Positions 899 through 63,462 of a DNA stretch of 64,000 nucleotides are shown here, one piece after another. Numbering within the stretch: position 1 is the stretch's first letter; every line of letters starts with the position of its first letter. The stretch is from contig NZ_LQBL01000032.1 of the NCBI RefSeq assembly GCF_001483745.1, positions 186,001 to 250,000 of the forward strand, read 5' to 3'. The notes below the pieces were generated by a model. The model saw only the letters and a list, made by a program, of their open reading frames with translations. It was not told the DNA's origin and did no database searches. This stretch comes from Serinicoccus chungangensis. Lineage in GTDB: Bacteria > Actinomycetota > Actinomycetes > Actinomycetales > Dermatophilaceae. The position numbers and the translations under genes were made by a program.

Positions 899-2208
899 GG
901 GAGCCACCGCCCGAGGCGCACCGGGCCGGGCAGCACGGGCGCGCGGACGACCGGCATGAGCAGCGGGTCGCCCGCCCTGCGCCACCACTCGCGGACCGGC
1001 TCGGTCCCGGGCAGGCGACCGACGAGGCGGTCGACCAGCTCGCGGGAGGGCAGCCGCACCCTCCCCCCGGGCAGCCCCACGACCCGGTGGCGGACGCCGG
1101 CGGGTCCGAGGAGGCTCTCGCGGACCCCCCGCAGCCGACTCAGGGCCCGCTGCGACGCGACGGCCACCCGTCGACCGGTCCGCTGCAGGAAGGGAGGGCC
1201 GTGCCTCCGGGCATACCGGACGAGGGCCGAGCCACCGTCCCACGCCGCGTTGCCCGACGACCAGGCCGCCCACACCGTGAGGAGGCCGACGCCGACGCCA
1301 CCGACCGCCGGGTGGAGGGCCGTGCCCGGCACGACCATGAACCCCCCGACGATCCCGGCGGCCGCCAGACCCCTCGTCACCTCGCCCCGCCAGCCGGCGT
1401 AACCGCCCCCGTCCCGCACGTCGCCCCAGGCCCCGAGCCAGGCCGTGACGAGGCGGTGCGGCCCGGGGACGAGCGCCACCCGGCCGAGGGCCGCCCCTCC
1501 GCGGACCCGCACCAGGGCCCGCAGCCGGGACAGCGCCCGCGCGGCCCGACGCAGCGCCTGCCGCCGGAGGTCGGCGGCCCGGGACCAACGGGCCCTCGCC
1601 AGCTGGACCGCGAGCTGGGTGGTGCGGACGACCCGCTCACCGGTCCCCCAGGCATACCCGAACGCCTCCACGGCCTTCCGGGGCGCGGTGGCCAGGTCGC
1701 GCACCTCCTGGAGGAGGTCCCAGGCCTGCGCCACCCGGCGTGCGGCGGCGCGCTCCTGCTCCCGGAACTCGTCCTCGACGGCCGCGACCCGCCGCCGCGC
1801 GAGCGCCTCCTCGTGCTGCAGCTGCTCGATGCGACGCCGCCGGAGCAGCTCGAGCCCCGGCTCGGGCGGCGGTCCCGGCAGCTGCAGCGCCAGGACCTCG
1901 GCCCGGGCCCGCTCGGCCCGCCGGGTCCACGTGCTCACCTCCTGGCTCGCCACCCGTGCCGCGGCCGCGCAGTCCAGCACCGCCGTCGCCGCCTCCCGGG
2001 GCGCCCCCGCCGCCGCGCGGGTGACCCGGTGCACGGCACGGGTCCGCGCGGACGCCTCCCAGGCGGCGAGCCCCGACCACCCCGGCTGCTGCGGGGCCCC
2101 GCCCAGCAGCCGGTCGGCCGCGGCCTCGATCTGCTCCCCGGCCGCGCGCAGCGACCACGCCGCCCGCTCCATCTCCTCCGGCGACGTCCGCAGGACCGAC
2201 GTGCTCAC
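895..2208 (-). CDS. Large WXG100/LXG-like type VII secretion-associated protein
   Basis: A 437-residue protein of unknown function. The first ~90 residues look like a helical hairpin of the WXG100 kind with GWSGLAAW at the turn (about residue 43). A long, charged coiled-coil-like stretch follows (about 120-270), rich in Arg and Glu. One hydrophobic region (about 290-340, including GLAAAGIVGGFMVV and GVGVGLLTVWAAW) could span a membrane, and a basic Arg-rich C-terminus ends the protein. The GTG start overlaps the stop of the 106-residue gene upstream (GTGA), and its own stop overlaps the EspG-like gene, so the three are probably one operon. It may be a secreted substrate or a membrane-associated partner; no toxin domain is recognisable. 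Confidence 0.5.
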   Translation of the reverse strand: MSTSVLRTSPEEMERAAWSLRAAGEQIEAAADRLLGGAPQQPGWSGLAAWEASARTRAVHRVTRAAAGAPREAATAVLDCAAAARVASQEVSTWTRRAERARAEVLALQLPGPPPEPGLELLRRRRIEQLQHEEALARRRVAAVEDEFREQERAAARRVAQAWDLLQEVRDLATAPRKAVEAFGYAWGTGERVVRTTQLAVQLARARWSRAADLRRQALRRAARALSRLRALVRVRGGAALGRVALVPGPHRLVTAWLGAWGDVRDGGGYAGWRGEVTRGLAAAGIVGGFMVVPGTALHPAVGGVGVGLLTVWAAWSSGNAAWDGGSALVRYARRHGPPFLQRTGRRVAVASQRALSRLRGVRESLLGPAGVRHRVVGLPGGRVRLPSRELVDRLVGRLPGTEPVREWWRRAGDPLLMPVVRAPVLPGPVRLGRWLP

Positions 2209-2525
2209 GGCACCATCCCTGCCCTCGGGCCGCGGGCCCACCCCCCGGCCAGGGACCTCTCCAGCTCGAGGTAGTCCGCCCGCGCCTGGCGCACCGCCCG
2301 CGCCAGCGACTCCCCCTGCCCGGCGACCTCGCGCAGCCCTGAGCGCCACCGGCCGGCGGCGTCGGTCGCCGCCCGGCTGAGCGGTCCGCCGCCGGCCGCC
2401 GCGGCCACGGTCACCAGGGCGCGGGCGAGCCCGTCGGCGACCTCCTCCAGCGCTCCTCCTGCCGCCTCCAGCTCCCCGGCCGCGGCCTGCAGGTGCTCGG
2501 CGTCCACGCGCACGGCATACCCCAT
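2205..2525 (-). CDS. EspC/WXG100-like small type VII protein
   Basis: A 106-residue, Ala-rich, almost wholly helical protein that starts MGYAVRVDAEHLQAAAGELE and has a central RWRSGLREV segment (about residues 61-69). This matches the shape of EspC-type (DUF2580) or WXG100 proteins, small helical-hairpin proteins exported as dimers by ESX systems. There is no signal peptide, as expected. It is the first gene of a three-gene overlapping cassette (GTGA overlap downstream). The start ATG lies inside a GGTATGCC-containing segment. The family assignment rests on size, composition and context; a generic helical protein is the alternative. Confidence 0.55.
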   Translation of the reverse strand: MGYAVRVDAEHLQAAAGELEAAGGALEEVADGLARALVTVAAAAGGGPLSRAATDAAGRWRSGLREVAGQGESLARAVRQARADYLELERSLAGGWARGPRAGMVP

Positions 2526-2630
2526 CGGTGCTCCCCCTCGATCGTCGACCCGGGCCCGGCAGGCCCGACTGACACCGAGGCTAGGGCAGTCGCCGCCGCC
2601 CGGGGAGAGTTGTCCACAGGGGACCGGGGC

Positions 2631-4547
2631 TCACCCCCGGAGCACGGGCCGCAACCCGTCCAGGACCGCGACGTCCTCGATCGTCGAAGGCACCATCGGG
2701 GTGTCGCCGTCCGCGATCTGACGCATCGTCCGGCGCAGGATCTTGCCCGACCGCGTCTTGGGCAGCGCGTCCACGACGTCCACCTGGCGTAGGGAGGCCA
2801 CCGGGCCGACCTCGGCCCGCACCCGGTCCACGAGCTCCTGCCGCAGACGGGCCTCGCCGGCCTCGTCCGGGTCGATCCCGGACTTGAGCACGACCAGGGC
2901 GCGGGGCACCTGCCCCTTGAGGTCGTCGGCGACCCCGATGACGGCGCACTCCGCGACCGCCGGGTGCCCGGCCAGCGCCTCCTCCAGGGCGCCGGTGGAC
3001 AGCCGGTGCCCCGCGACGTTGAGCACGTCGTCGGTGCGACCCATGACGTAGACGTAGCCGTCCTCGTCGACGTAGCCGCCGTCGCCGGACAGGTAGTAGC
3101 CGTCGTAGGCGGAGAGGTAGGAGGAGACGTAGCGCTCGTCGTCCTGCCACAGCGTGGGCAGGGTGCCGGGCGGCAGGGGCAGCCGCAGGCAGATCGCCCC
3201 CTCCGTCCCGGCAGGCACCTCCTCGCCCCGCTCGTCGAGGACCCGCACGTCGTAGCCGACGGTCGCCGGACCAGGGCTGCCGGGGCGGATGTCCAGCAGC
3301 GCGCCGTCGGGGCCGACCGGGTTGATGGCGATCGGCCAGCCGGTCTCGGTCTGCCACCAGTTGTCGACGACCGGGACGCCGAGGTGGTCGGACGCCCACC
3401 GCCAGGTGTCCGGGTCGAGGCGCTCCCCGGCGAGGAACAGCGCACGCAGCGAGGAGAGGTCGTGGGCGGGGACGAGCTCGGCGTGCGGGTCCTGCTTCTT
3501 GATGGCCCGGATCGCGGTCGGGGCGGTGAACGCCGCGACCGCGCGGTGCTGGGCGATCATCCGCCAGTAGGCACCGGCGTCCGGGGTGCCGACCGGCTTG
3601 CCCTCGAAGAGGATGGTCGTGGCCCCGGTGAGCAGCGGGGCGTAGACGATGTAGGAGTGCCCGACCACCCAGCCGACGTCGGAGCCGCACAGCCACGTCT
3701 CCCCCGGCCGGACGCCGTAGAGGTGCGTCATCGACCAGCGCAGGGCCACGGCATACCCCCCGCTGTCGCGGACGATGCCCTTGGGCCGCCCGGTCGTGCC
3801 GGAGGTGTAGAGCACGTAGAGCGGGTCCGTCGCCCGCACCGGCACGCAGGCCGCCGGGGCGACGGCGTCGGGGTGCATGAGGCTCGCCCAGTCGAGGTCG
3901 CGCTCCCCGAGCTCGCAGGTCAGCTGCTCGCGCTGGAGGATGACGCAGTGCTCCGGCTGGTGCGACGAGCGGGCGATCGCCTCGTCGAGCATCGGCTTGT
4001 AGGGCACCACCCGGGTCGGCTCGATGCCGCAGCTCGCGGAGACGACGACCGTGGGTCGCGCGTCCTCGATGCGCGCGGCGAGCTCGGCGGGGGCGAAGCC
4101 CCCGAAGACCACGGAGTGCACCGCACCGATGCGGGCGCAGGCCAGCATGGTGATGACCGCCTCCGGGACCATCGGGAGGTAGACGACGACGCGGTCGCCC
4201 CGGCCCACCCCGAGGTCGCGCAGCACGCCGGCGAAGCGTGCCACGAGGTCCAGCAGCTCGGCGTAGGTCCAGCTGCGGACGGTGCCCGTCACCGGGCTGT
4301 CGTGGACGAGGGCCGTCTGGTCGGCGCGCCCGTGCACCACGTGCCGGTCCAGGGCGTTGTAGCAGACGTTGAGGGTGCCGTCCGGGAACCAGCGGTAGAA
4401 GGGCGCGTCCGCGTCGTCCAGGACCTCGCGCGGCCGGTGGATCCAGTCGATGTCGCGCGCCGCCTGCTCCCAGAAGGCCCGGGGGTCGGCGAGGCTGGAG
4501 GCGACCTGCGCGCGGTAGGCCTGCTGCGGGGTGGCGTCGCTGCTCAT
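2631..4547 (-). CDS. prpE: Propionyl-CoA synthetase (acyl-CoA synthetase, AMP-forming)
   Basis: Activates propionate (and probably acetate) with ATP and CoA through an acyl-AMP intermediate. At 638 residues it has the full length of the Acs/PrpE family. Visible motifs are the ATP-binding loop YTSGTTGRPKG (about residue 247), the adenylate motif NWWQTETGWP (about 396), YLSGDGGYVDEDGY, GRTDDVLNVAGHRL, and PKTRSGKILRR with the C-terminal catalytic lysine (about 602), the usual acetylation target. The segments RDSGGYAVALRWSM and WVVGHSYIVYAPLL match PrpE better than AcsA. The ATG at 4547 is preferred over an in-frame GTG at 4562 because homologues begin near it. It is divergent from the LOG-family gene. 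Propionate or acetate activation fits the glyoxylate genes at 25-29.6 kb. Confidence 0.85.
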   Translation of the reverse strand: MSSDATPQQAYRAQVASSLADPRAFWEQAARDIDWIHRPREVLDDADAPFYRWFPDGTLNVCYNALDRHVVHGRADQTALVHDSPVTGTVRSWTYAELLDLVARFAGVLRDLGVGRGDRVVVYLPMVPEAVITMLACARIGAVHSVVFGGFAPAELAARIEDARPTVVVSASCGIEPTRVVPYKPMLDEAIARSSHQPEHCVILQREQLTCELGERDLDWASLMHPDAVAPAACVPVRATDPLYVLYTSGTTGRPKGIVRDSGGYAVALRWSMTHLYGVRPGETWLCGSDVGWVVGHSYIVYAPLLTGATTILFEGKPVGTPDAGAYWRMIAQHRAVAAFTAPTAIRAIKKQDPHAELVPAHDLSSLRALFLAGERLDPDTWRWASDHLGVPVVDNWWQTETGWPIAINPVGPDGALLDIRPGSPGPATVGYDVRVLDERGEEVPAGTEGAICLRLPLPPGTLPTLWQDDERYVSSYLSAYDGYYLSGDGGYVDEDGYVYVMGRTDDVLNVAGHRLSTGALEEALAGHPAVAECAVIGVADDLKGQVPRALVVLKSGIDPDEAGEARLRQELVDRVRAEVGPVASLRQVDVVDALPKTRSGKILRRTMRQIADGDTPMVPSTIEDVAVLDGLRPVLRG

Positions 4548-7082: not shown

Positions 7083-7967
7083 TCAGACCAGCAGGTGCAG
7101 CAGCGCCCAGCAGACGGGTGCGGTCACCACGAGGGAGTCCAGACGGTCCATCACGCCGCCGTGCCCGGGCAGGATGCTGCCCATGTCCTTGATGCCGAGG
7201 TCACGCTTGATCGCGGACTCGGCCAGGTCGCCGACGGTGGCGAAGGCGGCCGCGCACGCCCCCACCACGAGGCCGGCCCACCAGGCGCCGTCCAGGAGGA
7301 GGAGGACGCACACGGACCCCACCACGGCGCTGGTGGCCACCGACCCCGCGAAGCCCTCCCACGACTTCTTGGGCGACAGCGAGGGGGACATGGGGGTGCG
7401 TCCGCGCAGGACGCCCACGGCATACCCCCCGGTGTCGGAGGCCACGGTGACGAGGATGAAGGTGATGATCCGGCCGACGCCGTCCGGCTGCGCCAGCATG
7501 AGCGAGGCGATGGCGGCGAGCAGGGGGACGTAGGCGACGATGTAGACGCCGCCGGCGACGTCCCGGGCGGCGTCCCGGGGCGAGCCGACGCTGCGCCAGA
7601 GCAGGATGAGCGCGGTGGCCGCCGCGAAGCCGACGGCGAGCGCGTCCGCCCCCTGGTAGTAGGCGAGCGGCACCAGGGCGACCGAGGCGAAGACCGGCAC
7701 CCGGGGCGGGTCGACCCGCCCCGTGCGCAGCGCCTGGTCGAGCTCCCAGACCCCGACCACCGCCGCGGCCGTGACGAGGTAGACGAAGGCGGCCTTCCAG
7801 AAGACCAGGCTGGCCAGGATGACGAGCACGAGGCCGACCCCGACCCCGATGGCGGCGGGCAGGTTGCGGCCGGCCCGGGAGGGACGCCCCGAGCGGCGGG
7901 CCGACCCGGCGGCCGCCCGCGTGCCGGGGTCCGGCGTCGCGGGGGCCGTGGCGCTCGGGTCGGTCAT
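7083..7967 (-). CDS. cdsA: Phosphatidate cytidylyltransferase
   Basis: Makes CDP-diacylglycerol from phosphatidic acid and CTP at the membrane, the branch point to phosphatidylglycerol, cardiolipin and phosphatidylinositol. The 294-residue protein has a disordered cytoplasmic N-terminus (about 40 residues), then roughly seven to eight hydrophobic helices. It closes with the family signature: SAIKRDLGIKDMG, then PGHGGVMDRLD near the C-terminus, containing the Mg-binding acidic residues. The ATG at 7967 is chosen because a GAGGGGGAA stretch precedes it and homologues start there; a longer in-frame start reaching into frr is rejected. It lies 28 bp after frr, probably co-transcribed. Confidence 0.93.
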   Translation of the reverse strand: MTDPSATAPATPDPGTRAAAGSARRSGRPSRAGRNLPAAIGVGVGLVLVILASLVFWKAAFVYLVTAAAVVGVWELDQALRTGRVDPPRVPVFASVALVPLAYYQGADALAVGFAAATALILLWRSVGSPRDAARDVAGGVYIVAYVPLLAAIASLMLAQPDGVGRIITFILVTVASDTGGYAVGVLRGRTPMSPSLSPKKSWEGFAGSVATSAVVGSVCVLLLLDGAWWAGLVVGACAAAFATVGDLAESAIKRDLGIKDMGSILPGHGGVMDRLDSLVVTAPVCWALLHLLV

Positions 7968-8562: not shown

Positions 8563-8618
8563 CGTGGGTGCTCCTTGCGTGGTATGTCGTGGTGCGGCTG
8601 GTGCGGGCGGCGCGGCGG

Positions 8619-9392
8619 TCAGCCCGCCGTCACGAGTGTCCCGATCCTCTCACCCTTGATCGCCCGGGTGATGGAGTCCTCGCCGTCCATGCCGAAGACG
8701 AGCATGGGCAGCTCGTTGTCCATGCACAGGCTGAACGCCGCGGCGTCGACGACGCGCAGGTTGCCGACGAGGGCGTCGGAGAAGGTCAGCTCCTCCAGCT
8801 TGCGGGCCTGGTCGTCGGTGCGCGGGTCCGCGGTGTAGACGCCGTCCACCCCGTGCTTGCTCATGAGCACCTGGTCGCACTTGATCTCCAGGGCCCGCTG
8901 GGCCGAGACGGTGTCGGTCGAGAAGTACGGCATACCGGCGCCCGCGCCGAAGATCACGACCCGCCCCTTCTCGAGGTGGCGCATCGCGCGACGGGGGATG
9001 TAGGGCTCGGCGACCTGGCCCATGGTGATGGCGGTCTGCACGCGGGTGTCCACCCCCTCCTTCTCCAGGAAGTCCTGGAGGGCGAGGCAGTTCATCACCG
9101 TCCCCAGCATGCCCATGTAGTCCGCCCGGGCCCGCTCCATGCCCCGCTGCTGCAGCTCGGCGCCGCGGAAGAAGTTGCCCCCGCCGATGACCACGGCGAT
9201 CTGCACCCCGGCGCGATGGGCGTCGGCGATCTGGTGGGCGATCCCCTTGACCACGTCCGGGTCGACGCCGACGTGCCCTCCGCCGAAGGCCTCGCCGGAG
9301 AGCTTGAGCAGGACCCGGCGCGCCCGACCCGGGTGCCGGGCGGACAGGTCGTGGCTCGATGCGGTCCGGTGCGCGGGCGCGGTCGTGGTCAT
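8619..9392 (-). CDS. pyrH: UMP kinase
   Basis: Phosphorylates UMP to UDP in pyrimidine nucleotide synthesis; bacterial hexameric amino-acid-kinase family. Seen in the 257-residue protein: [12 protein letters not shown] (nucleotide loop), [29 protein letters not shown] (UMP contacts), [13 protein letters not shown], and [21 protein letters not shown]. The ATG at 9392 is preferred because GGAGGA lies 7 nt upstream; the in-frame extension to 9446 is not typical. The first ~25 residues are a variable tail. It lies 56 bp upstream of frr. Confidence 0.96.
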
Positions 9393-9485: not shown

Positions 9486-10448
9486 TCAGCGGGGCGTCGG
9501 GAGCTTGGTGCCGGCCACCTGCCGCTCGTCCAGGACGGCGCGCCGGAAGCGGTAGAGGCGGGCCGGTCGCCCCCCGGTGTCCGCGGAGATCTCCCCCGTC
9601 TCCTCGACGAGCTCCTGCCCGGTCACCAGACGCCGGAAGTTCTGCTTGTGCAGCGCTCGCCCGGCGAGCGCCTCGACGGTGCGCTGGAGCCGGCCCAGGG
9701 TGAAGGTCTGGGGCACGAGCTCGAAGACCACGGGCCGGTACTGGATCGTCGCGCGCAACCGGGACAGCGCCGTGGCGAGGATGCGGCGGTGGTCGGACTC
9801 CAGGGGCTCCCCCGGCACCAGGGACGCCCCGGCCTCGGGGATGAGGCCCGCCTCCCAGAGCAGCTCGTAGCGCTGCAGGGCCAGCTCGGGAGCCCAGGCG
9901 CGCCCGCCCAGCCCGAAGCAGATGTCGGCCCGGTGGCGGCGGGCGCTGCGGGCGCCCACGGGCGCACCCGCCACCCACCCGGTCAGCAGCGGGGCCACGG
10001 TCTGCTCGACGAGCCCGGCCCCCGACGTCCGCGGGTCCTCGGTGCCGCGGTGGTCCTCCCAGGGGAAGAAGGCGTACCAGTCGCGCCACTGCGGTCCGGG
10101 GACGGCTCTGGTCAGCCCGAGGTAGGAGACCGAGACGGCCCGGCGCGCCCCCGGGTCGCCGTCGGCGAAGGTGTACAGCTGCTCGACGTAGCCCAGCCGG
10201 TGCCCCGTCTGCTCCTCGACCCAGGCGCTCAGACCGGCCTGCATCGAGCGGTGCTCCGAGCGCAGCGGTCCGGCCGGCAGCCGGGGGCGCTCCCCCGACG
10301 TCAGGACCAGGGGCCGGTCGTCGTCGACCGCGGTCACCACGGCGACCAGCTCGGCACTCAGGTCGGCGGACACCGCCTCATCCTGCCTCCCCCCGGCCTG
10401 ACGGACCACCTCGACCCCGGTCGGGCGCGCCTCCTGGGGCTGCGGCAT
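9486..10448 (-). CDS. Nudix-domain winged-helix regulator (NrtR-like)
   Basis: A 320-residue protein with an N-terminal Nudix-like domain (opening AVVTAVDDDRPLVLTS) and a C-terminal winged helix (about residues 245-300, including TLGRLQRTVEALAGRALHKQNFRRLV). This is the architecture of NrtR, a repressor of NAD biosynthesis that binds ADP-ribose-type ligands. The catalytic Nudix box is degenerate: around SAWVEEQTG the REuxEExGu pattern is only partly kept, as expected of a sensor rather than a hydrolase. Its position between tsf and pyrH is unusual. pncB and pncA in this window would be natural targets, but no operator was identified. It could be an unrelated Nudix-wHTH regulator. Confidence 0.6.
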   Translation of the reverse strand: MPQPQEARPTGVEVVRQAGGRQDEAVSADLSAELVAVVTAVDDDRPLVLTSGERPRLPAGPLRSEHRSMQAGLSAWVEEQTGHRLGYVEQLYTFADGDPGARRAVSVSYLGLTRAVPGPQWRDWYAFFPWEDHRGTEDPRTSGAGLVEQTVAPLLTGWVAGAPVGARSARRHRADICFGLGGRAWAPELALQRYELLWEAGLIPEAGASLVPGEPLESDHRRILATALSRLRATIQYRPVVFELVPQTFTLGRLQRTVEALAGRALHKQNFRRLVTGQELVEETGEISADTGGRPARLYRFRRAVLDERQVAGTKLPTPR

Positions 10449-10476
10449 ACCCTCCGGTCCACCAGCGGCACCGACG

Positions 10477-12632: not shown

Positions 12633-13796
12633 ATGAGCGATCCTCTCGTCCAGCGACTCCAGCCGTTCGGCACCAGCGTCTTCGCCGAAATGACCCAGCG
12701 TGCCCTGCAGTTCGACGCGGTCAACCTCGGTCAGGGTTTCCCGGACACCGACGGCCCGCAGGAGATGCTCGACCTCGCGGCGCGCGGCCTGCAGGAGGGG
12801 CTCAACCAGTACGCCCCGGCCCGCGGCCTGCCCGTGCTGCGCGAGGCGGTGGCCGAGCACCAGGAGCGGTGGTACGGCATACCTCTCGACCCGCAGACGC
12901 AGGTCCTCGTCACGGTCGGCGCCACCGAGGCCATCGCCGCCTCCCTCATCGCCCTGGTCGAGCCCGGGGAGGAGGTCCTGGTCATCGAGCCGTCCTACGA
13001 CTCCTACGGTGCCGCGGTCGCGATGGCGGGCGGGGTGCGCCGCAGCGTGCAGCTGCGCTTCCCGGACCTGTCCCTCGACCTGCAGGAGCTGCGCGCGGCC
13101 GTGACGGACCGCACCCGCGTCCTCGTCCTCAACACCCCGCACAACCCCACCGGCAAGGTCTTCACCGCCACCGAGCTGGAGGGGATCGCCGCCGTCGCGC
13201 GGGAGCACGACCTCGTGGTCGTCTCCGACGAGGTCTACGAGCACCTGGTGTTCGACGGGCGACGCCACCTCCCCGTCGCCGGGCTGCCGGGCATGTTCGA
13301 GCGGACGTTGACCATCTCCTCGGTGGGCAAGACCTTCTCCCTCACCGGGTGGAAGACCGGGTGGGTGAGCGGCCCGCGGGAGCTGGTGGACGCCGTCGCG
13401 GCGGTGAAGCAGTTCCTCACCTTCGTCGGGGTGACGCACCTGCAGCCGGCGGTCGCCCACGGTCTGGCCATGCCCGACGCGTTCTTCCACGGGTTCGCCC
13501 GCCGGCTGCAGGACAAGCGGGACCTGCTGGTCGAGGCGCTCGGGGAGGTCGGGGTGCCGGTCAGCCCCTGCCAGGGCAGCTACTTCGTCATCGCCGACCT
13601 CGCGCCCCACGGCGTCGAGGACGCCGTCGACTTCTGCCGCCGCATGCCCGAGGAGCTGGGGCTGGTCGGCGTGCCGGTCTCGGTGTTCTGCGACGACCCG
13701 GCGCCGGTGCGCAGCCTGGTGCGCTTCGCCTTCTGCAAGCAGGACGAGGTTCTGCGGGAGGCGGCGCGCCGCCTGCACCGGCTCGGCAGCGCCTGA
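12633..13796 (+). CDS. Class I/II PLP aminotransferase (DapC / kynurenine aminotransferase-like)
   Basis: A 387-residue fold-type I aminotransferase. Visible: [12 protein letters not shown] (substrate loop), [12 protein letters not shown] (phosphate cup), [24 protein letters not shown], and [16 protein letters not shown] with the PLP lysine (about residue 231). The GKTF and GWKxGW forms match the actinobacterial N-succinyldiaminopimelate aminotransferase (DapC) / methionine or kynurenine aminotransferase group. Exact substrate is uncertain. The ATG follows a TACCGT (12621-12626) by 6 nt without a ribosome-binding site, so it is probably leaderless. It begins a three-gene plus-strand group with the RDD gene and xerC. 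Confidence 0.85.
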
Positions 13797-13809
13797 CAGG
13801 CTCGCTGGT

Positions 13810-14379
13810 ATGCCGTCCGCGCCCCCGACGAGAGCGCCCGCGTCCTGGCGTCCCTCGCCGCGGGCCCGGGTGGGGTCCTGGCTCGGGGACTGGGCGGTCG
13901 TCGGTGGGTGGCTCGGGGTGCTGACCCTGGCCGGCCTCGTGCTGCGACCGACGCTCGGGGTCTCTGCCACCGTCACCGTCACGCCGGGTTCCCTGCTGGC
14001 CTCCGACGTCGCCGTCACGCTGGCCACCGTGGTCCCCTACGTGTGCTACCTCGCGCTCACCGAGTCCTCTGCCCGTCAGGCCACGCTCGGCAAGCGGTGG
14101 GCAGGCCTGGTGGTGACGGCGCTCGACGGCACCGCGCCGAGCCGCTCCGCGGTCTGGCTCCGCAACGTCGTCAAGGCCCTCCCGTGGCAGCTGGCACACC
14201 TCGGCGCGAGCAGGGGGATCCTGGAGGTGCAGGAGGGCTGGGGCCTGGGTCTGGTGGTGCTCTCGCTCGTGCTGGCGGTGCTGTGCGCCGCACCGGCTCT
14301 CGTCGGGGGCCGCGGCATCCACGACCGCGCGGCGGGTACCCGGGTGGCGCGGGTCGCGAGCCGGGGAACGGCCCCGTGA
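13810..14379 (+). CDS. RDD-family membrane protein
   Basis: A 189-residue integral membrane protein with four hydrophobic segments (about residues 28-47, 63-83, 115-130, 140-165). The RDD signature appears in degenerate form: [12 protein letters not shown] near the N-terminus (Arg and Asp of the family at R20/D26) and [11 protein letters not shown] after the second helix, a well-conserved mark of the family. Function unknown; some relatives are ion antiporters. The ATG lies in a GGTATGCC octamer. The stop overlaps the GTG start of xerC. Confidence 0.75.
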
Positions 14380-15378: not shown

Positions 15379-16149
15379 TCACCGGACCTCCTCTCGGGCG
15401 TCCTCACCGGCCCCACCGGGTCCGTCCGCCGGTCCGGCACCCGCCCTCCCGGTGGCCCGACCCTCGTGCGGGAGCAGGGTCAGCTCCACGCCGAGCAGCA
15501 GCGGCGTCGGGTCGACGTAGCCGTCGCGACCCCGCACGGCCCCGAGGTGCAGGCAGTCGTGGACGGCGCAGTGGCCCCCGGACGTCAACCGCCCGAGGGG
15601 GTCCCCGCGAGCCACTCGTGTCCCCTGGGCCACCCGGGCCCCGACCGGCTGGTAGGTGCTGCGCAGACCGCTCGGATGGGTCACGCTCACCACGCCCATC
15701 CCGGCGACCTCCCCGCTGAAGCTCACGACACCCCCGTCCACCGCCAGCACCCTCTCGCCGGGCAGACCGGCGAGGTCGACGCCTCGGTGGCCACGCCCCC
15801 AACGGTGCTCGGGCGGGTCGAAGCCCTGCAGGATCTCGGGGACGCCGGCGAGGGGCCAGCCCCACAGCGCGGTGCTCTGCCGGTCCCCCGTAGCGGTGTC
15901 CACGGTGGGCACGCGCAGACCCAGCAGGACCGAGACCAGCGCGCCCGAGGAGGAGACCACCGGCGCGGCCGCCACCACCGGGGTGGAGGACCCGGCGAGC
16001 ACCGCCACGGCTGCCAGGGCCGCCCAGGCGGCCTGCCTCGAGCGGCCGACGCGCCCGGCTCGACCGAGGCGGCGCGCGTGGCCGGCGCGGCGCGCGGGGC
16101 GGGGGGCGCCAGCGCCGTCCGCCGTCCCGGGTCCCCCGGCCCGGTTCAT
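15379..16149 (-). CDS. M23-family (LytM-type) peptidase-like exported protein
   Basis: A 256-residue protein with an Arg-rich start, a hydrophobic signal/anchor (AAWAALAAVAVLAGSSTPVVAAAP, about residues 40-65) and a C-terminal LytM domain: RGHRGVDLAG carries the first zinc His and Asp, later GGHCAVHDCLHLG. In classical LytM enzymes the last motif is HxH; here the first His of that pair is Cys (CLH). CLHWG-type forms are common in actinobacterial relatives, so this may be a subfamily trait or reduced activity. Role: peptidoglycan hydrolysis or hydrolase activation outside the cell. The ATG overlaps the dprA stop (ATGA). Confidence 0.8.
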   Translation of the reverse strand: MNRAGGPGTADGAGAPRPARRAGHARRLGRAGRVGRSRQAAWAALAAVAVLAGSSTPVVAAAPVVSSSGALVSVLLGLRVPTVDTATGDRQSTALWGWPLAGVPEILQGFDPPEHRWGRGHRGVDLAGLPGERVLAVDGGVVSFSGEVAGMGVVSVTHPSGLRSTYQPVGARVAQGTRVARGDPLGRLTSGGHCAVHDCLHLGAVRGRDGYVDPTPLLLGVELTLLPHEGRATGRAGAGPADGPGGAGEDAREEVR

Positions 16150-17258
16150 CGGGCCCCCACAGGTCGCCGTTGCCACCCGTCGAGGAGCTCCTCGGCCAGA
16201 CCCGCACGCTCCAGCTCGCGCAGCGCCCCGAGCGTCTCCCGCAGCGTCAGGCCCGACCGCGCCATGACGTCGTCGACGGCGCTCGAGGAGCGCGGCCGAA
16301 GCCACTGCCACACCCGCCGCAGGTCCTCCGTGAGCCCGTCCGCGGCGCGGCTCTCCCCCTGCTTGACCGGCGCGAGGTCGTCACCGATGCGCCCGACCAG
16401 CTCGGCCACCTCGGCGCCGTCCGTGACGAGCTCGGCGCCGAGCCGGATCTCGGCGTGCGTGCCCTGCGACATGAGGCTCTCCACCGAACCCGGGACGGCC
16501 ATCACCGGCCGCCCCAGCTCTCGGGCGTGCTTGAGCGTCGACCGCGCGCCGGAGCGCAGGCCCGCCTCGACGACCACCGTCCCCCGGGCGACGCCGGCGA
16601 TGATCCGGTTGCGGGCGAGGAAGCGCATCCGGGCCGGAGCTCCGCCCGGCGGGGTCTCGCTGACGAGGACACCGGTCCGGCGGATGCGGTCGATGAGCCC
16701 GGTGTTGGCGCGGGGGTAGGGCACGTCGACGCCTCCGGCCAGCACCGCGACGGTGGACCCCTCCGCCGCGAGCGTGGCGCGGTGGGCCGTGGCGTCGATG
16801 CCGAAGGCCGCCCCGGAGACGACCGTGAAGCCTCGGGCCACGAGATCGACGCACAGGCCGGCGGTGACGTGGTCGCCGTAGGCCGTGCTGGCCCGGGCAC
16901 CGACCACCGCGACGCTGCGGTCGGCCAGCGCGGCGAGGTCACCCGGGCCGGTCGCCCAGAGGCACCACGGCGGGTGCTCGAGCTGGTCGAGGCCGTCGGG
17001 CCACTCGGGGTCGCCGGGCACGAGGATGCGGGCCCCCAGCCGGCCGGCGATCCGCTCGTCGTCGACGGCCTCGGCCCGCGCCAGCCGCGCCACGAGCCGC
17101 CCGAGGTCCGCCCCACCGGGGGCGCGCCCGTCGCGCACGGCGCAGCCGACGGTCTCCACGACCCCGTGCTCGGCCACCACCTGCTGCACCCGCTCGTCGT
17201 AGGGCTCGGCGAGCCGGGACAGCAGGATGCGCGCCCGCCGCTCGTCCTCCCGCCTCAT
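16146..17258 (-). CDS. dprA: DNA-processing protein DprA
   Basis: Binds incoming single-stranded DNA and loads RecA during transformation. The 370-residue protein has the Rossmann-like core: SVAVVGARASTAYGDHVT (about residues 112-129), GFTVVSGAAFGIDATAHRATLAAEGSTVAVLAGGVDVPYP, FLARNRIIAGVARGTVVVEAGLRSGARSTLKHARELGRPVMAVPG. A winged-helix DML1-like domain closes it (about 310-360). Start and stop overlap yifB and the M23 gene by 4 bp each, so translation is tightly coupled. With the ComM-like neighbour this is the usual competence-related pair of Actinobacteria; the rest of an uptake machine is not in the window. Confidence 0.95.
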   Translation of the reverse strand: MRREDERRARILLSRLAEPYDERVQQVVAEHGVVETVGCAVRDGRAPGGADLGRLVARLARAEAVDDERIAGRLGARILVPGDPEWPDGLDQLEHPPWCLWATGPGDLAALADRSVAVVGARASTAYGDHVTAGLCVDLVARGFTVVSGAAFGIDATAHRATLAAEGSTVAVLAGGVDVPYPRANTGLIDRIRRTGVLVSETPPGGAPARMRFLARNRIIAGVARGTVVVEAGLRSGARSTLKHARELGRPVMAVPGSVESLMSQGTHAEIRLGAELVTDGAEVAELVGRIGDDLAPVKQGESRAADGLTEDLRRVWQWLRPRSSSAVDDVMARSGLTLRETLGALRELERAGLAEELLDGWQRRPVGAR

Positions 17259-18784
17259 GCCACCTTCACCCCGCTCGGCGTCCGTAGGTCCAGCGCCAGG
17301 GTGACGTCGTCGAGCTCGGGGCGCTCGGCACCGCGGAGGTCGGCCAGCGTCCAGGCCACGCGGAGGGCTCGGTCCAGGCCGCGCAGCGTCAGGGCGCCCC
17401 GGTCCATGGCCCGCTCGAGCGGTCGTCGCTGGGCCGGGCCCAGGCGCCAGGGCCGCTGCCGCAGCACGGCACCCGGGACCTCGCTGTTGAGCAGCCAGGG
17501 AAGGGCGCGCCACCGGTCCCGCTGATGCTCGCGGGCCCGCAGCACCCGGTCCGCCACCACCACGGAGGGTTCGCCCGGCGGGAGGGCGAGATCGCCGCGG
17601 GTCACCGCGCTCACGCCGAGCTTGAGGTCGATCCGGTCGAGCAACGGCCCGGAGAGCCGGCCCAGATAGCCGGTCCGGCGGAAGGGTGGGCACGAGCAGG
17701 CACCGCCGGCGCCGCCGCAGGGGCACGGGTTGGCCGCGAGCACGAGCTGGAACCGCGCGGGCAGCCGCACGTGCCGGTCGGCCCGGGCGATGAGCACCTC
17801 CCCCGACTCCAGGGGCTGTCGGAGACCGTCGAGGACGTCCCGCCGGAACTCCGGCGCCTCGTCGAGGAAGAGGACGCCGCGGTGGGCTCGCGACACGGCA
17901 CCCGGATGGATGAGGCGGGATCCGCCGCCGATGACCGCGGCCGTGGACGCCGTGTGGTGCGGCGCGACGAAGGGCGGGCGCGTCACCAGCCGGTCGTCCG
18001 CCGGCAGGGCGCCGAGGACGGAGTGGATCCCGGTCACCGCCAGCGCGTCGTCGGCGCCCAGCTCGGGCAGGATCCCGGGCAGCCGCTCGGCCAGCATGGT
18101 CTTGCCTGCGCCCGGCGGGCCCACGAGGAGCAGGTGGTGGCCCCCGGCCGCGGCGATCTCCAGCGCCTGCCGGGCCACCGCCTGCCCCACGACGTCGCCG
18201 AGGTCGGGCACCCGGGCCGGGGGTGAGGGCGAGGCGGGGGGCAGCTCGAGGTGCAGCTCCTCGCCGCCGGACCGGGCGAGGTAGAAGGCACGGACGTCGT
18301 CGAGCGTGCGCACCGGGTGCACCCGCACCCCGGCCACCAGGGCCGCCTCACGCCCCGCGTCGGCGGCCACCAGCACCTCCTCGACCCCGTCGGCCGCCGC
18401 CGCCAGCGTCATGGGCAGCACCCCGGGCACCGGCCGGACGTCACCCGCCAGACCCACCTCCCCCACGTGGGCGATGCCGCGGACCGCCGCCGCGGGCACG
18501 TGACCCTCCGCGGCCATCATCGCCACCGCGATGGCGAGGTCCAACCCGCTGCCGGCCTTGGGGACGCCCGCCGGTGAGAGGTTGATGGTCCACCTCCTCG
18601 GGGGGACCGGCATCCCGCAGTTGCGCAGGGCGGGCCGCACCCGGTCCGGCGCCTGCCGGCAGGCACTGTCGGCCAGGCCGGTCATCACCGTCGCGGGCAG
18701 CCCGTCGGCCCCCTGGGCCTCCACGGTGACCAGACGACCCTCGACGCCGCTCAGCGTGACGGCGTGCGTCCGGGCGAGCGCCAT
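17255..18784 (-). CDS. YifB/ComM-family Mg-chelatase-like AAA+ ATPase
   Basis: A 509-residue protein with an N-terminal Lon-protease-like S5 domain (ATVMTGLADSACRQAPDRVRPALRN, INLSPAGVPKAGSGLDLAIA), a ChlI-type AAA+ module (Walker A GPPGAGKTMLAERLPG, about residue 220; Walker B GVLFLDEAPEF; arginine finger region), a CPCG/CSC zinc-like cluster (NPCPCGGAGGACSC), and a C-terminal Mg-chelatase domain. ComM of Vibrio and Haemophilus is a branch-migration helicase that helps integrate transformed DNA. It lies between yraN and dprA with overlapping ends. Confidence 0.92.
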   Translation of the reverse strand: MALARTHAVTLSGVEGRLVTVEAQGADGLPATVMTGLADSACRQAPDRVRPALRNCGMPVPPRRWTINLSPAGVPKAGSGLDLAIAVAMMAAEGHVPAAAVRGIAHVGEVGLAGDVRPVPGVLPMTLAAAADGVEEVLVAADAGREAALVAGVRVHPVRTLDDVRAFYLARSGGEELHLELPPASPSPPARVPDLGDVVGQAVARQALEIAAAGGHHLLLVGPPGAGKTMLAERLPGILPELGADDALAVTGIHSVLGALPADDRLVTRPPFVAPHHTASTAAVIGGGSRLIHPGAVSRAHRGVLFLDEAPEFRRDVLDGLRQPLESGEVLIARADRHVRLPARFQLVLAANPCPCGGAGGACSCPPFRRTGYLGRLSGPLLDRIDLKLGVSAVTRGDLALPPGEPSVVVADRVLRAREHQRDRWRALPWLLNSEVPGAVLRQRPWRLGPAQRRPLERAMDRGALTLRGLDRALRVAWTLADLRGAERPELDDVTLALDLRTPSGVKVA

Positions 18785-23527: not shown

Positions 23528-23532
23528 ACCGC

Positions 23533-52668: not shown

Positions 52669-53688
52669 TCACCCGCCGTAGTGGTCCCAGCCCCCGCGGG
52701 CGGGGTCGAGACAGTCCGGGCCGAGCCAGACCCCGGCGCCGCCGCCGTCGGGCGCCACCACGTCGCCGAGGAGGACCCACCCGTACGGCACGGCGTCGGG
52801 GACGAAGGTGGCGAGCAGCACGTGCTCCTCCCCGCCGCCCAGCACGGCCCGGCGGGCAGCCTCGGCCGGCACCCCGTCCAGGGCGGCGGCGAGGGCGTCC
52901 ACCGCCCCGGGCCGCAGGTCGATCCGCACGTCGCTGGCCCTGGCCACGCGGTCGGCGTCACGGACCAGCCCGTCGGACACGTCGATCATCGACGATGCCC
53001 CCGCGAGCGCGGCCCGCGGCCCCTGACCCAGGTCGGTCCAGGGACGCCGGTGGTAGTCGACCCACGCCCCCTCGTGGCGTCCCTCGAGCAGCTGGGCGAG
53101 CCCCGCCCCCGAGCGACCCAGCGGCCCGGAGACGGCGAGCACGTCACCCGGACGGGCACCGTCTCGCCGGACCGGGTGCTCCACCCCCTCCGGCAGCTCG
53201 CCCAGCGCGGTGACACCGACCATGACCACGCCGTCCGGCGCCGCGCCGAGGTCACCCCCGACGACCGGGACACCGCTGCGCCGCGAGGCCCACGCCATAC
53301 CCTCCGCCAGGCCGCGCGCCCACGCCACCGGCAGCCGCGGGTGCGCCGCGAGCGTGACGAGCAGACCGGTGCCCGCCCCGCCCATCGAGGCGATGTCGGC
53401 GAGGTTCTGCGTCGTGGCCTTGACCCCGACGTCCTGCGGCGTCGACCAGTCGTCGCGCCAGTCGTGGCCCAGCACCATGGTGTCCGTGGTCGCGAGCACC
53501 GCTGCCCGCCGCACCCGCAGGTATGCCGTGTCGTCACCCGGGCCCACGAGCACGCCGTCGACCGGCTGGTCGGCGAGGGCGGCGAAGACCTCGGCGAGCA
53601 CGCCCCGCTCCCCCACCTCCCCGAGCAGCGGCCCCGTCGTCGCGCCCTCACCGGGGCCCACCCGTCCACCGTCCTCGCTCGCGTCCAC
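52669..53688 (-). CDS. thiL: Thiamine-monophosphate kinase
   Basis: Phosphorylates thiamine phosphate to thiamine diphosphate. The 339-residue PurM/ThiL fold has GVLVGPGDDTAYLRV (ATP/metal loop), VLATTDTMVLGHDWR, KATTQNLADIASMGG, PVVGGDLGAAPDG, SSMIDVSDGLVRDADRVA and GGGEEHVLLATF. The GTG at 53688 is taken over a longer frame to 53709 because TACCGT lies 6 nt upstream on the minus strand. Divergent from the Lrp-domain gene. Confidence 0.92.
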   Translation of the reverse strand: MDASEDGGRVGPGEGATTGPLLGEVGERGVLAEVFAALADQPVDGVLVGPGDDTAYLRVRRAAVLATTDTMVLGHDWRDDWSTPQDVGVKATTQNLADIASMGGAGTGLLVTLAAHPRLPVAWARGLAEGMAWASRRSGVPVVGGDLGAAPDGVVMVGVTALGELPEGVEHPVRRDGARPGDVLAVSGPLGRSGAGLAQLLEGRHEGAWVDYHRRPWTDLGQGPRAALAGASSMIDVSDGLVRDADRVARASDVRIDLRPGAVDALAAALDGVPAEAARRAVLGGGEEHVLLATFVPDAVPYGWVLLGDVVAPDGGGAGVWLGPDCLDPARGGWDHYGG

Positions 53689-53735: not shown

Positions 53736-53969
53736 GTGGTCAAGGCATACATGCTCGTCCAGACCCAGGTCGGGGCGTCCGCGCAGGTCACCCGCACCCT
53801 CCGGGGCCTCGCGGGGGTGGTGAGCGCCGAAGACGTCGCCGGGCCCTACGACGTCATCGCCGTCGTGCAGGCGCCCACGGTCGCCGAGCTCGGCCGAGGG
53901 GTGATCGCCCGCGTCCTCGAGGTCCCCGACATCACCCGCACGACGACGTGCACGGTCGTCGAGCTCTGA
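53736..53969 (+). CDS. Stand-alone Lrp/AsnC ligand-binding (RAM) domain protein
   Basis: A 77-residue protein corresponding to the C-terminal RAM domain of Lrp/AsnC regulators: VKAYMLVQTQVGASAQVTRTLRGLAGVVSAEDVAGPYDVIAVVQAPTVAELG, with the VAGPYDVI motif; there is no DNA-binding domain. Such single-domain proteins bind amino acids and can partner full-length Lrp proteins. The GTG at 53736 has AGGAGG 5 nt upstream. Its 3' end overlaps the DUF3515 gene by 22 bp. Confidence 0.85.
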   Translation: MVKAYMLVQTQVGASAQVTRTLRGLAGVVSAEDVAGPYDVIAVVQAPTVAELGRGVIARVLEVPDITRTTTCTVVEL

Positions 53970-54423: not shown

Positions 54424-55557
<1,134 letters not shown>

Positions 55558-57382: not shown

Positions 57383-58066
57383 GTGACCCCGACCCCCCGC
57401 GCCCCCCGGCCCGCGACCCGGTGGCGCCTCGTGGTCCCGCTCCAGCAGGCGGAGCGCGCCAAGACCCGCCTGGTGGCGCCCGAGGGGGTCGACCGGGTCG
57501 CGCTGGCCCGCGCCATCGCCGCCGACACGCTGGAGGCGGTATGCCGTGCCCTCCCCCCGGGCGACGTCGTCGTCGTCACCTCGGACGAGGCCGGTGCGGC
57601 GCGGGCGGCCGCGCTGTGCGCGCAGGTCGTCGACGACCCCGGGGGCGGGCTGAACGCCGCCATCCGGGCCGGCCTCGAGGTCGCCGGCGACCCGGGTGAC
57701 GGGACGGCGGGCGGGGCCGGCGCACGGGGTCTGGCCGTCCTGCTCGGTGACCTGCCGTGCCTGCGGCCCGCAGACCTGGTGGCGGCGCTGGACGTCTGCG
57801 CAGGCCACCCGCGCGCGGTGGTGCCCGACGCCGACGGCTCGGGCACCGTGCTGCTCACCTCCGTCGACGCCGACCTCGAGCCGCGCTTCGGAGCGGGCAG
57901 CGCCGCCCGGCACGCGAGGACCGCCGCGCGACTGGGGCTGGACCTCCCGCGCCTGCGCCGCGACGTCGACACCAGCGCGGACCTGGGCGACGCCATACAC
58001 CTGGGCCTGGGGCCGCGGACGACCGCCGCGCTCGCGGACGCAGGCCCCCCGCCGACCTCGGCCTAG
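57383..58066 (+). CDS. cofC: 2-phospho-L-lactate / phosphoenolpyruvate guanylyltransferase (F420 biosynthesis)
   Basis: Activates 2-phospholactate or phosphoenolpyruvate with GTP in coenzyme F420 synthesis (CofC/FbiD family). The 227-residue protein has WRLVVPLQQAERAKTRLV (nucleotide-binding N-terminus), VDDPGGGLNAAIRAGLE, LAVLLGDLPCLRPADLVAAL and a SGTVLLTSVDADLEPRFGAGSAARHAR substrate region, all typical. The GTG start follows a weak GAGGAT by 6 nt. Other F420 genes are not in the window. Confidence 0.88.
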   Translation: MTPTPRAPRPATRWRLVVPLQQAERAKTRLVAPEGVDRVALARAIAADTLEAVCRALPPGDVVVVTSDEAGAARAAALCAQVVDDPGGGLNAAIRAGLEVAGDPGDGTAGGAGARGLAVLLGDLPCLRPADLVAALDVCAGHPRAVVPDADGSGTVLLTSVDADLEPRFGAGSAARHARTAARLGLDLPRLRRDVDTSADLGDAIHLGLGPRTTAALADAGPPPTSA

Positions 58067-62138: not shown

Positions 62139-62144
62139 GCCCCC

Positions 62145-62154
62145 ACCATAGGGT
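62145..62154. promoter_or_regulatory. Overlapping divergent -10 hexamers, clpS / pncB
   Basis: Minus-strand TATGGT (62145-62150) and plus-strand TAGGGT (62149-62154) share TA at 62149-62150. Both genes start with GTG exactly 6 nt away on each side, leaving 22 bp between start codons. Same layout as at 42482-42491. Confidence 0.6.
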
Positions 62155-62160
62155 GCGGGG

Positions 62161-63462
62161 GTGAGCCCGAGCACCGCCCTGCTGACCGACCACTACGAGC
62201 TGACGATGATCCAGGCCGCGCTCGCCAGCGGTCACGCCGAGCGGCGCTGCGTCTTCGAGGCGTTCGCCCGCCGGCTGCCCGAGGGGCGGCGCTACGGCGT
62301 CGTCGCTGGCACCGGACGCGCGCTGGAGGCGCTGCGCGACTTCCGCTTCGGCGAGGAGGAGCTCGCCTTCCTCGCCGACCGCGAGGTGGTGGACCGCAGC
62401 ACCCTGGACTGGCTGGCCGACTTCCGGTTCAGCGGCGACATCTGGGGGTATGCCGAGGGCGAGGTCTACTTCCCGGGCTCCCCGCTGCTCGTCGTCGAGT
62501 CGGGCTTCGCCGAGGGGGTGGTGCTGGAGACCCTCTTCCTGTCGGTCCTCAACCACGACTCGGCCGTGGCCTCGGCGGCGTCCCGGATGACGGCGGTCGC
62601 CCACGGCCGCCCGTGCATCGAGATGGGCAGCCGACGCACGCACGAGGCCTCGGCGGTGGCGGCGGCGCGGGCGGCATACCTCGCGGGGTTCTCCTCCACC
62701 TCCAACCTCGAGGCGGGCCGGCGGCACGGCATCCCGACCATGGGGACGGCCGCCCACTCCTACACCCTCCTGCACGACGACGAGCGCCAGGCCTTCGCCA
62801 ACCAGCTCGCCAGCCTGGGGCTGTCCACCACCCTCCTGGTCGACACGTACGACGTGACCGGCGCCGTCGAGCTGGCGGTCGAGCTGGCCGGGAGCGAGCT
62901 CGGTGGCGTGCGGCTGGACTCCGGTGACCTGGTGAGCCAGGCCTTCGAGGTCCGCAGCCAGCTGGACCGGCTCGGGGCGCCGGACACCCGCATCGTCGTG
63001 ACCTCCGACCTCGACGAGCACGCCATCGCCGCGCTGCAGGCGGCGCCCGTGGACGCCTACGGCGTGGGCACCAAGGTGGTGACCGGCTCGGGTCACCCGG
63101 CGGCGGGGATGGTCTACAAGCTGGTGAGCCGGGAGAGCGGCGCCGGCCGGATGGAGGGGGTGGCCAAGGCCAGCAAGGACAAGGCGAGCGTGGGCGGGCG
63201 CAAGTACGCCCTGCGCCGACGGTCCACCGGGGGCGAGGCGACCGAGGAGATCATCGGGATCAACGAGCGACCCCAGGACGACGGCGACGACCGTCCCCTG
63301 CTCGTGCCGCTGGTCGAGCGCGGCGAGGTGGTCGCCCGCACCGACGTCGAGGCCGCGCGGGAGCACCACGAGCGGGCCCGGGCAGAGCTGCCGCAGCGGG
63401 CGCTGCGGCTCTCCCTCGGCGACCCGGCGCTGGCGACGACCTACCTCGACGACTGGACCTGA
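62161..63462 (+). CDS. pncB: Nicotinate phosphoribosyltransferase
   Basis: First step of the Preiss-Handler NAD pathway from nicotinate. The 433-residue protein has ALLTDHYELTMIQAALASGHAERRCVFEAFARRLPEG (N-terminal substrate region), GMPCR-equivalent EMGSRRTHEASAVAAARAAYLAG, and RLDSGDLVSQAF, with TSDLDEHAIAALQAAPVDAYGVGTKVVTG, a barrel end typical of PncB. It is opposite clpS and convergent with pncA, so two NAD-salvage genes flank the same gap. Confidence 0.93.
   Translation: MSPSTALLTDHYELTMIQAALASGHAERRCVFEAFARRLPEGRRYGVVAGTGRALEALRDFRFGEEELAFLADREVVDRSTLDWLADFRFSGDIWGYAEGEVYFPGSPLLVVESGFAEGVVLETLFLSVLNHDSAVASAASRMTAVAHGRPCIEMGSRRTHEASAVAAARAAYLAGFSSTSNLEAGRRHGIPTMGTAAHSYTLLHDDERQAFANQLASLGLSTTLLVDTYDVTGAVELAVELAGSELGGVRLDSGDLVSQAFEVRSQLDRLGAPDTRIVVTSDLDEHAIAALQAAPVDAYGVGTKVVTGSGHPAAGMVYKLVSRESGAGRMEGVAKASKDKASVGGRKYALRRRSTGGEATEEIIGINERPQDDGDDRPLLVPLVERGEVVARTDVEAAREHHERARAELPQRALRLSLGDPALATTYLDDWT

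Follow-up and report, generated by a model that had tools for sequence, protein, structure and literature searches.

A 64-kb stretch of the Serinicoccus chungangensis genome (contig NZ_LQBL01000032.1, positions 186,001 to 250,000; hereafter the window) contains 35 exact copies of the octamer GGTATGCC, 15 of which read as GGTATGCC on the plus strand and 20 as GGCATACC. This is the count given in the original prediction, which was made from the letters of the window, and all 17 of the positions it listed are correct. The octamer ranks first among the 8-mers of the window, and the extended word GGTATGCCG, which covers 29 of the 35 copies, ranks first among the 9-mers. Dinucleotide-shuffled versions of the window had a mean of 0.48 copies and a maximum of 2 (100 shuffles), and Markov models of order 2 and order 3 predict 1.1 and 1.7 copies, so the strong over-representation first noticed by eye stands at 35 copies versus about 0.5 to 1.7 by chance. 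By gene calls, 21 copies are sense, 9 are antisense, 3 fall at gene starts and 2 are intergenic; an earlier tally of 25, 9 and 1 for sense, antisense and intergenic copies was right for the antisense class and is revised for the other two. Four copies had been described as sitting on start codons: those at 10444, 23523 and 26553 are at the starts of called genes, and the one at 13807 precedes a listed ATG open reading frame (ORF). Near-copies proposed at 8581, 12501 and 35264 were found in place, and a fourth, put at 54678, begins at 54677. The window was also said to hold dprA and a ComM-like gene, and Pfam matches bear out both; ComM is the name we take to apply to the Mg-chelatase family gene at 17255..18784. 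The features of the window, with their strands, are:

1210..1217, minus, GGTATGCC copy, exact match
1651..1658, minus, GGTATGCC copy, exact match
2514..2521, minus, GGTATGCC copy, exact match
3750..3757, minus, GGTATGCC copy, exact match
7419..7426, minus, GGTATGCC copy, exact match
8929..8936, minus, GGTATGCC copy, exact match
10444..10451, minus, GGTATGCC copy; gene 9486-10448 is predicted to start at its ATG
12876..12883, minus, GGTATGCC copy, antisense
13807..13814, plus, GGTATGCC copy; its ATG starts ORF 13810-14379
19142..19149, minus, GGTATGCC copy, exact match
19724..19731, minus, GGTATGCC copy, exact match
20252..20259, minus, GGTATGCC copy, exact match
22359..22366, plus, GGTATGCC copy, exact match
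22713..22720, plus, GGTATGCC copy, exact match
23523..23530, minus, GGTATGCC copy; gene 22799-23527 is predicted to start at its ATG
25976..25983, plus, GGTATGCC copy, antisense
26553..26560, minus, GGTATGCC copy; gene 25010-26557 is predicted to start at its ATG
27785..27792, plus, GGTATGCC copy, exact match
30654..30661, minus, GGTATGCC copy, exact match
30815..30822, plus, GGTATGCC copy, intergenic
31386..31393, plus, GGTATGCC copy, exact match
31748..31755, plus, GGTATGCC copy, antisense
32228..32235, minus, GGTATGCC copy, exact match
33631..33638, minus, GGTATGCC copy, exact match
35697..35704, minus, GGTATGCC copy, antisense
35834..35841, plus, GGTATGCC copy, exact match
38020..38027, minus, GGTATGCC copy, exact match
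38997..39004, plus, GGTATGCC copy, antisense in the SMC-query gene; exact at the orthologous site in 9 of 30 species rows, some of which do not span the site
39461..39468, plus, GGTATGCC copy, antisense in the SMC-query gene; exact at the orthologous site in 17 of 30 species rows, some of which do not span the site
44305..44312, plus, GGTATGCC copy, antisense
53520..53527, plus, GGTATGCC copy, antisense
55420..55427, minus, GGTATGCC copy, exact match
57538..57545, plus, GGTATGCC copy, exact match
62447..62454, plus, GGTATGCC copy, exact match
62673..62680, minus, GGTATGCC copy, antisense
8581..8588, plus, one-change variant GGTATGTC
35264..35271, plus, one-change variant TGTATGCC, core GTATGCC intact
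46722..46729, minus, one-change variant CGTATGCC, core GTATGCC intact
53744..53751, minus, one-change variant TGTATGCC, core GTATGCC intact
54677..54684, plus, one-change variant GGTATGTC
16146..17258, minus, dprA (DNA-processing protein of transformation; context), Pfam PF02481, E 9.4e-65
17255..18784, minus, ComM/YifB-like Mg-chelatase family gene (context), Pfam PF01078, E 1.5e-82

The abundance of the octamer extends to the whole S. chungangensis genome (3,556,988 b, 33 contigs), which has 1375 copies (677 + 698), or 0.39 per kb, and 18 (10 + 8) copies of the reversed word. The density reaches 0.6 per kb in G007 (G-numbers are the labels of the compared genomes). Gene context, shuffles and Markov expectations for S. 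chungangensis were obtained on a 464-kb sample, where 161 copies were found versus 8.3 (order 3) and 9.0 (order 2) expected. The observed to expected ratio (O/E) under the order-2 model is 17.8 in S. chungangensis, 28.4 in G007 and 25.1 in G022. Flanking bases at the 161 sites favor G at position 9 (130/161) and T or C at position 10 (119/161), with no other strong preference beyond position 10.

We compared the copies within genes with synonymous-codon shuffles (n = 50) that preserve every protein and its codon usage. The 82 sense and 45 antisense copies in the S. chungangensis sample far exceed the shuffle means of 5.3 and 1.6, as do the 106 sense and 135 antisense copies in G007 (means 5.4 and 3.3), ruling out a codon or codon-pair effect as the cause of the abundance. 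GGTATGCC is thus a DNA-level, frame-independent, genome-wide word, as had been proposed from the window. TAT accounts for 174 of 2296 Tyr codons overall in S. chungangensis and for 67 of 78 within GG-TAY-GCC. Gly-Tyr-Ala outnumbers Ala-Tyr-Gly by 71 to 21 in the S. chungangensis sample, 92 to 50 in G007 and 47 to 22 in G022; the counts are 12 and 14 in G023, where the word is nearly absent, and 15 and 26 in G019, which uses another dialect. Perhaps the word bends proteome composition in this way. Arg-Tyr-Ala, which the word can also encode, has no comparable excess (32/28 in the S. chungangensis sample). The remaining copies are intergenic (24 in S. chungangensis, 44 in G007) or at gene edges (10 and 11), and G022 has 89 sense, 83 antisense and 52 intergenic or edge copies. 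The sense lean in S. chungangensis and the antisense lean in G007 indicate that there is no consistent gene-strand rule. Gene starts are predicted at the ATG within the word at 10 of the 161 sites. The palindromic relatives are rare: compared with order-3 expectations, GGTATACC occurs once versus 1.4 in S. chungangensis and 6 times versus 2.1 in G007, and GGCATGCC 12 times versus 9.5 and 9 times versus 16.2.

Serinicoccus belongs to NCBI family Ornithinimicrobiaceae, and the host falls in the Serinicoccus/Ornithinimicrobium clade. Thirty of the 31 home-genus genomes, S. chungangensis included, have 285 to 2180 copies of GGTATGCC; the sole genome with few is G023 (38 copies, reversed control 7). 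A wider survey covered 159 genomes of the order, S. chungangensis included, 10 of which are from other genera of the same family. Six of these 10, spanning three genera, are high-count genomes with 372 to 1105 copies (reversed control in parentheses): G047 1104 (10), G180 1105 (33), G152 841 (12), G138 546 (100), G064 493 (62) and G110 372 (110). The other four, one genome from each of four genera, are low-count: G080 41 (13), G124 54 (21), G166 48 (9) and G096 6 (4). This split rests on the count, as the ratio of word to reversed control separates the groups poorly (G166 5.3, G138 5.5, G110 3.4); in the home genus the ratio for G023 (5.4) is little under those for G009 (6.3) and G021 (6.8). 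The 148 sampled genomes from other families have at most 136 copies (G137, control 33). The extended word GGTATGCCG was seen in short loci of G047, G138, G180 and G152, and the short loci of G110 and G064 (3.8 kb each) hold one near-variant apiece. In a RecC + SMC tree, rooted by midpoint only, G023 groups with the motif-bearing G016 (533 copies) and G021 (312), which makes loss of the word in G023 likelier than a late gain.

The common core is GTATGCC, with the species dialects GGTATGCCGT and AGTATGYCG. The latter occurs 1276 times in G019, 703 in G041, 599 in G006, 538 in G015, 475 in G008, 451 in G010 and 260 in G020 (a 75%-complete genome), versus 51 to 189 times in the other 23 motif-bearing home-genus genomes and 9 times in G023. 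Six of the seven rich genomes form one clade in the RecC + SMC tree; the seventh, G020, lacks a RecC match and is outside the tree clade. In G019, AGTATGCCG occurs 85 times versus 1.9 expected, and in G007 the variants TGTATGCC, AGTATGCC and CGTATGCC exceed expectation 3.5 to 7.7 fold. Conservation of sites had been suggested as a check. Among eight named relatives, 57 of 94 orthologous-site comparisons are exact versus about 41 expected from control words of the same composition, where the comparisons share sites and history and are hence not independent. Each of the four SMC sites is found again at the orthologous position in 6 to 17 species. Literature searches, including ones on competence in these genera, located no report, by title or abstract start, of an over-represented or uptake word in Actinobacteria; among the listed publications that contain the exact word as a string, none was about an over-represented genomic word, judged by title.

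Copies of the word in the same orientation exclude each other, and this orientation-specific exclusion is a new finding. In the pooled G007, G022 and S. chungangensis data, there are 12 same-orientation pairs closer than 150 bp versus 69.5 expected, and opposite-orientation pairs (78) show no dip. The pooled same-orientation density of GTATGCC reaches the random level at 750 bp (650-900 within 2 log units), and the exclusion curve gains 74 log units over a flat curve. In an enlarged G007 sample (700 kb, 429 copies), the ratio of same-orientation pairs to random is 0.16 below 100 bp, 0.44 at 100-200, 0.40 at 200-400, 0.59 at 400-700 and 0.95 at 700-1000 bp, and that of opposite-orientation pairs is 1.2-1.4 across the bins up to 1000 bp. 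Only 93 of 274 neighboring G007 pairs share an orientation. Among 143 words of similar count, itself included, GGTATGCC has the lowest same-orientation neighbor share in G007 (0.369 versus a median of 0.52), and in an unbiased scan of 1685 7-mers GTATGCC ranks first (95 same/227 opposite within 700 bp, p 6.5e-14). G022 was sampled after the rule had been stated, and its exact words gave 7 same/32 opposite pairs within 400 bp and 19 same/50 opposite within 700 bp (p 2.4e-4).

Near-variants take part in the exclusion. The top-five variant set of G007 showed 22 same/65 opposite pairs with exact copies within 500 bp and 308/306 at 1.5-4 kb; the S. chungangensis set, made up partly of other variants, showed 15 same/19 opposite. 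For TGTATGCC, AGTATGCC and CGTATGCC combined, the same/opposite counts within 700 bp of exact copies are 36/97 in G007, 23/50 in G022 and 7/12 in S. chungangensis. Variants lie on both sides of exact sites (28 on the 5' side, 38 on the 3' side), and opposite pairs in G007 are convergent about as often as divergent. The copies taken together are not regularly spaced, as total spacing is near random (CV 0.96-1.10); the mean same-strand spacing is 2.5-4.8 kb. Terminator-like inverted pairs are rare, given that just 4 of the 274 adjacent pairs in G007 are within 50 bp of each other. One intergenic inverted pair, GGCATACC/GGTATGCC, 17 bp apart (G000:C2:34422-34446), is a potential hairpin resembling Neisseria uptake-sequence terminators. 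In G023 we found GGTAGCGGC to be over-represented (42 versus 6.1 expected) and considered it as a replacement word; it showed no exclusion (2 same/3 opposite within 700 bp), and a 222-kb sample of G023 yielded no replacement word that follows the spacing rule. Exclusion confined to the same orientation argues for a reader with a direction, since neither biased mutation nor a site bound regardless of strand nor any effect of codons is expected to yield it. The arrangement of the copies indicates that the word is read directionally, strand by strand, by something.

The replichores of G007 and G022 show no strand skew. In G007, 150 of 296 copies are on the leading strand, with the terminus and the origin placed, by our own reading, at GC-skew changes near 0.28 and 1.9 Mb, respectively. 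The G022 count is about 97-102 of 224 and varies with the position chosen for the terminus. FtsK KOPS-type motifs have strong replichore polarity, and a replichore-polar signal of this type is not supported, as neither genome shows such polarity. RecC matches occur in 30 of the 31 home-genus genomes, 28 of them above the curated cut-off. Outside the home genus, RecC and a high count are mutually exclusive in this sample: a profile model found no RecC match in 6 of 6 high-count genomes (G047, G064, G110, G138, G152, G180), although a divergent RecC is conceivable, and found RecC in 4 of 4 low-count genomes (G080, G096, G124, G166). Shared ancestry may lie behind this split. RecC is also present in the low-count G024, G027 and G036 and in G023.

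S. chungangensis encodes ComEA (SLBB + HHH), ComEC (Competence + Lactamase_B), DprA and the ComM-like protein. ComEC was found in 29 of the 31 home-genus genomes and in all 15 family genomes tested, two of these matches being partial. ATPases of the type II/IV/Tad secretion superfamily are present in 31 of 31 home-genus genomes. Gain of a type IV pilus was rejected as the cause, because the best T2SSE ATPase class (E ~1e-64 to 1e-70; membership judged by best E-value only) lacks S. chungangensis, G007, G022 and G011. In G015, a single-contig genome, the ComEC match (G015:C1:1055794-1056114) spans only 1-110 of 270, possibly a damaged comEC. Two genomes have a prophage of ~40 kb within comEC (G002:C1:1161102-1202035 and G018:C46:68443-109701). 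Both split the gene in the same short region, at about residues 281-294 of S. chungangensis ComEC, and have serine integrases of the same family. Of 10 prophage proteins tested, 8 have matches among PHROGs families (integrase, tail, primase, polymerase) and the other 2 have none; no relative of the integrase was found among the viral contigs searched. The two ends of each prophage contain 3 copies of the word in ~50 kb, versus ~16 predicted from host density. The two look like phages that target comEC or silence transformation, as though shutting down transformation were to the advantage of mobile elements.

We propose, with a probability of about 0.4, that GTATGCC is a signal by which natural transformation recognizes self DNA, making it an uptake sequence in a monoderm bacterium; among the functions listed in the original prediction, DNA uptake would fit the sequence evidence best. 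A little more tentative is the fuller proposal, in which a Gram-positive (monoderm) lineage would have its first DNA-uptake sequence and that sequence would be strand-specific, the orientation picking the imported strand and the spacing recording the length of import or conversion (~0.75 kb). A competence surface or import protein (ComEA/ComEC or a pilus) is the putative reader, and would favor import of the strand bearing the word in one orientation. Only one strand enters a monoderm cell, so the orientation of the word could select the strand. Word-bearing DNA would recombine back into the population more often, and biased gene conversion (molecular drive) would thereby spread the word. Where an imported piece already has one word, another in the same orientation would add nothing, and such redundancy would produce same-orientation exclusion that extends for roughly a fragment length. 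An opposite word would promote import of the other strand and so act as a separate signal.

By analogy, the magnitude of the enrichment, the dialects, the near-variants, the poverty of the word in prophages and the lack of polarity are uptake-sequence-like. The O/E of 17.8-28.4 compares with 2.29 for Escherichia coli Chi, the spread is family-restricted and patchy with dialects, and the congener with the lowest count, G023, has a partial comEC (G023:C11 7186-8504) whose frame breaks just before the contig end. Several points weigh against this proposal. The frame break in G023 may be an assembly error. Four low-count relatives from other genera have whole-domain ComEC matches, so possession of uptake machinery is not enough to predict the word. 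The exclusion is weak in S. chungangensis alone (8 same/20 opposite within 400 bp, p 0.036) and in G019 alone (13 same/27 opposite within 400 bp, p 0.038), and the eight named loci show none at 400 bp (3 same/4 opposite; 4/14 at 700 bp). In unbiased word scans, GTATGCC has p 0.015 in S. chungangensis, where other words score lower, and in G019 a core word has the top rank at p 0.019, which does not set it apart from the rest. The replication in G022 is not fully independent, because this genome is related to G007. Haemophilus recognizes its uptake sequence as duplex DNA at the outer membrane, a setting in which orientation should be irrelevant; uptake there reportedly shows no significant effect of orientation, and the strand rule is thus an extrapolation. 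We found no uptake or transformation experiment on these species in the literature.

The main rival, itself unlikely, is a Chi-like site for a non-RecBCD helicase-nuclease of the AdnAB or AddAB type. Such an enzyme would enter from a DNA end, meet the oriented word, stop degrading and start recombination; a further word in the same orientation would be redundant and opposite words would serve the other end. A site met by a travelling enzyme is expected to give directional, strand-independent exclusion, and outside the home genus the word is abundant where RecC was not matched (6/6) and scarce where it was (4/4), a pattern that a different end-processing enzyme using the word might produce. We know of no Chi for AdnAB. 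The density of 0.39-0.6 per kb is near that of E. coli Chi, given as about one per 5 kb in the part of PMC3784561 available to us, but the enrichment is ~10 times that of E. coli Chi at the same model order (O/E 2.29, same source). Further, this rival predicts neither the absence of leading-strand bias nor an exclusion that ends at ~750 bp when the mean same-strand spacing is several kb.

Slightly less probable is another oriented intracellular signal, such as for replication restart, a mismatch-repair strand mark or chromosome organization, with a minimum density per strand under selection. The strand-wise spacing and the excess of exact orthologous sites, from comparisons that are not independent, are in keeping with such a signal. 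However, the word is scarce in the single sampled genomes of four family genera and in G023, which lacks a replacement word showing the spacing rule in its 222 kb, and there is neither replichore polarity nor a consistent gene-strand polarity.

The abundance and frame independence would be explained by a mark for methylation, restriction-modification or a nucleoid protein, or by a HIP1-like repeat that biased mutation or repair has fixed, but such readings are improbable. A strand-blind mark or mutational process yields no same-orientation exclusion, and so the earlier suggestion of a methylation or nucleoid-protein site does not account for the orientation-specific reading; the palindromic relatives are rare, and copies are few in the two prophages found within chromosomes of this kind. 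HIP1 of cyanobacteria is a palindromic octamer. The likeness to HIP1 drawn earlier therefore holds for a ubiquitous, frame-independent octamer and fails for palindromy, as our word differs from its reverse complement. A RecBCD-type Chi site, also suggested at first, fits the RecC matches in the home genus, the octamer length and the directional reading but is very improbable and was dropped as the leading reading on RecC gene content outside the home genus, where G047, G180 and G152 (841-1105 copies) lack a RecC match and the four low-count genomes have one, as do G024, G027, G036 and G023.

E. coli Chi has a leading-strand bias, which our word lacks. The two are alike in being asymmetric octamers that are read directionally, and our word is scarce in the foreign DNA sampled; they differ in that high-count relatives in other genera have no RecC match and in the O/E, which for Chi is about ten times less than 18-28.

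The signal proposed here resembles the Haemophilus uptake signal sequence (USS) and Neisseria DNA uptake sequence (DUS) in density, which is of the same order (0.4-0.6 per kb in S. chungangensis and G007), in extreme over-representation, in dialects among relatives and in the presence of uptake machinery, and it is under-represented in the prophage DNA sampled. It differs in occurring in a monoderm of the Actinomycetota and in the exclusion between same-orientation copies over ~750 bp. In Haemophilus, 230 USS pairs lie within 100 bp and 109 opposite pairs within 14 bp, compared with the few close pairs in G007. The extended word GGTATGCCGT(C) contains ATGCCGT, which we take to be the beginning of the Neisseria 12-base uptake sequence; this is probably a coincidence. 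According to the passages of PMC1939737 available to us, orientation has no significant effect on uptake in Haemophilus and no replichore bias is reported for the Haemophilus and Neisseria uptake sequences, the latter being the same for our word. Orientation-independent action does not hold for our word, as judged indirectly from the same-orientation exclusion. Transformation of Micrococcus luteus involves ComEA/ComEC and Flp/Tad pili, with no ComG (PMC6370729, in part). The genomes studied here share ComEA, ComEC and pilus/secretion-superfamily ATPases, known from superfamily matches rather than an annotated Tad operon. The available parts of two M. luteus papers (PMC4322843, PMC8467076) contain no passage on an uptake sequence or signal, or on sequence-specific, heterologous or foreign DNA.

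The orientation-specific exclusion test is applicable to any abundant DNA word, to ask if it is read directionally, and the strand rule makes the mechanism testable from genome sequence alone. Should a non-RecBCD nuclease turn out to use the word as its Chi, the enrichment of that Chi would far surpass the one seen in E. coli. In practical terms, the word could help to make Serinicoccus relatives genetically tractable. Two Gram-negative families, Pasteurellaceae and Neisseriaceae, are to our knowledge those with established sequence labels for the sexual exchange of DNA, and the abstract of PMC7811141 names these two. If GTATGCC is indeed an uptake sequence, a label in Actinomycetota would mean that the system has evolved again in cells without an outer membrane.

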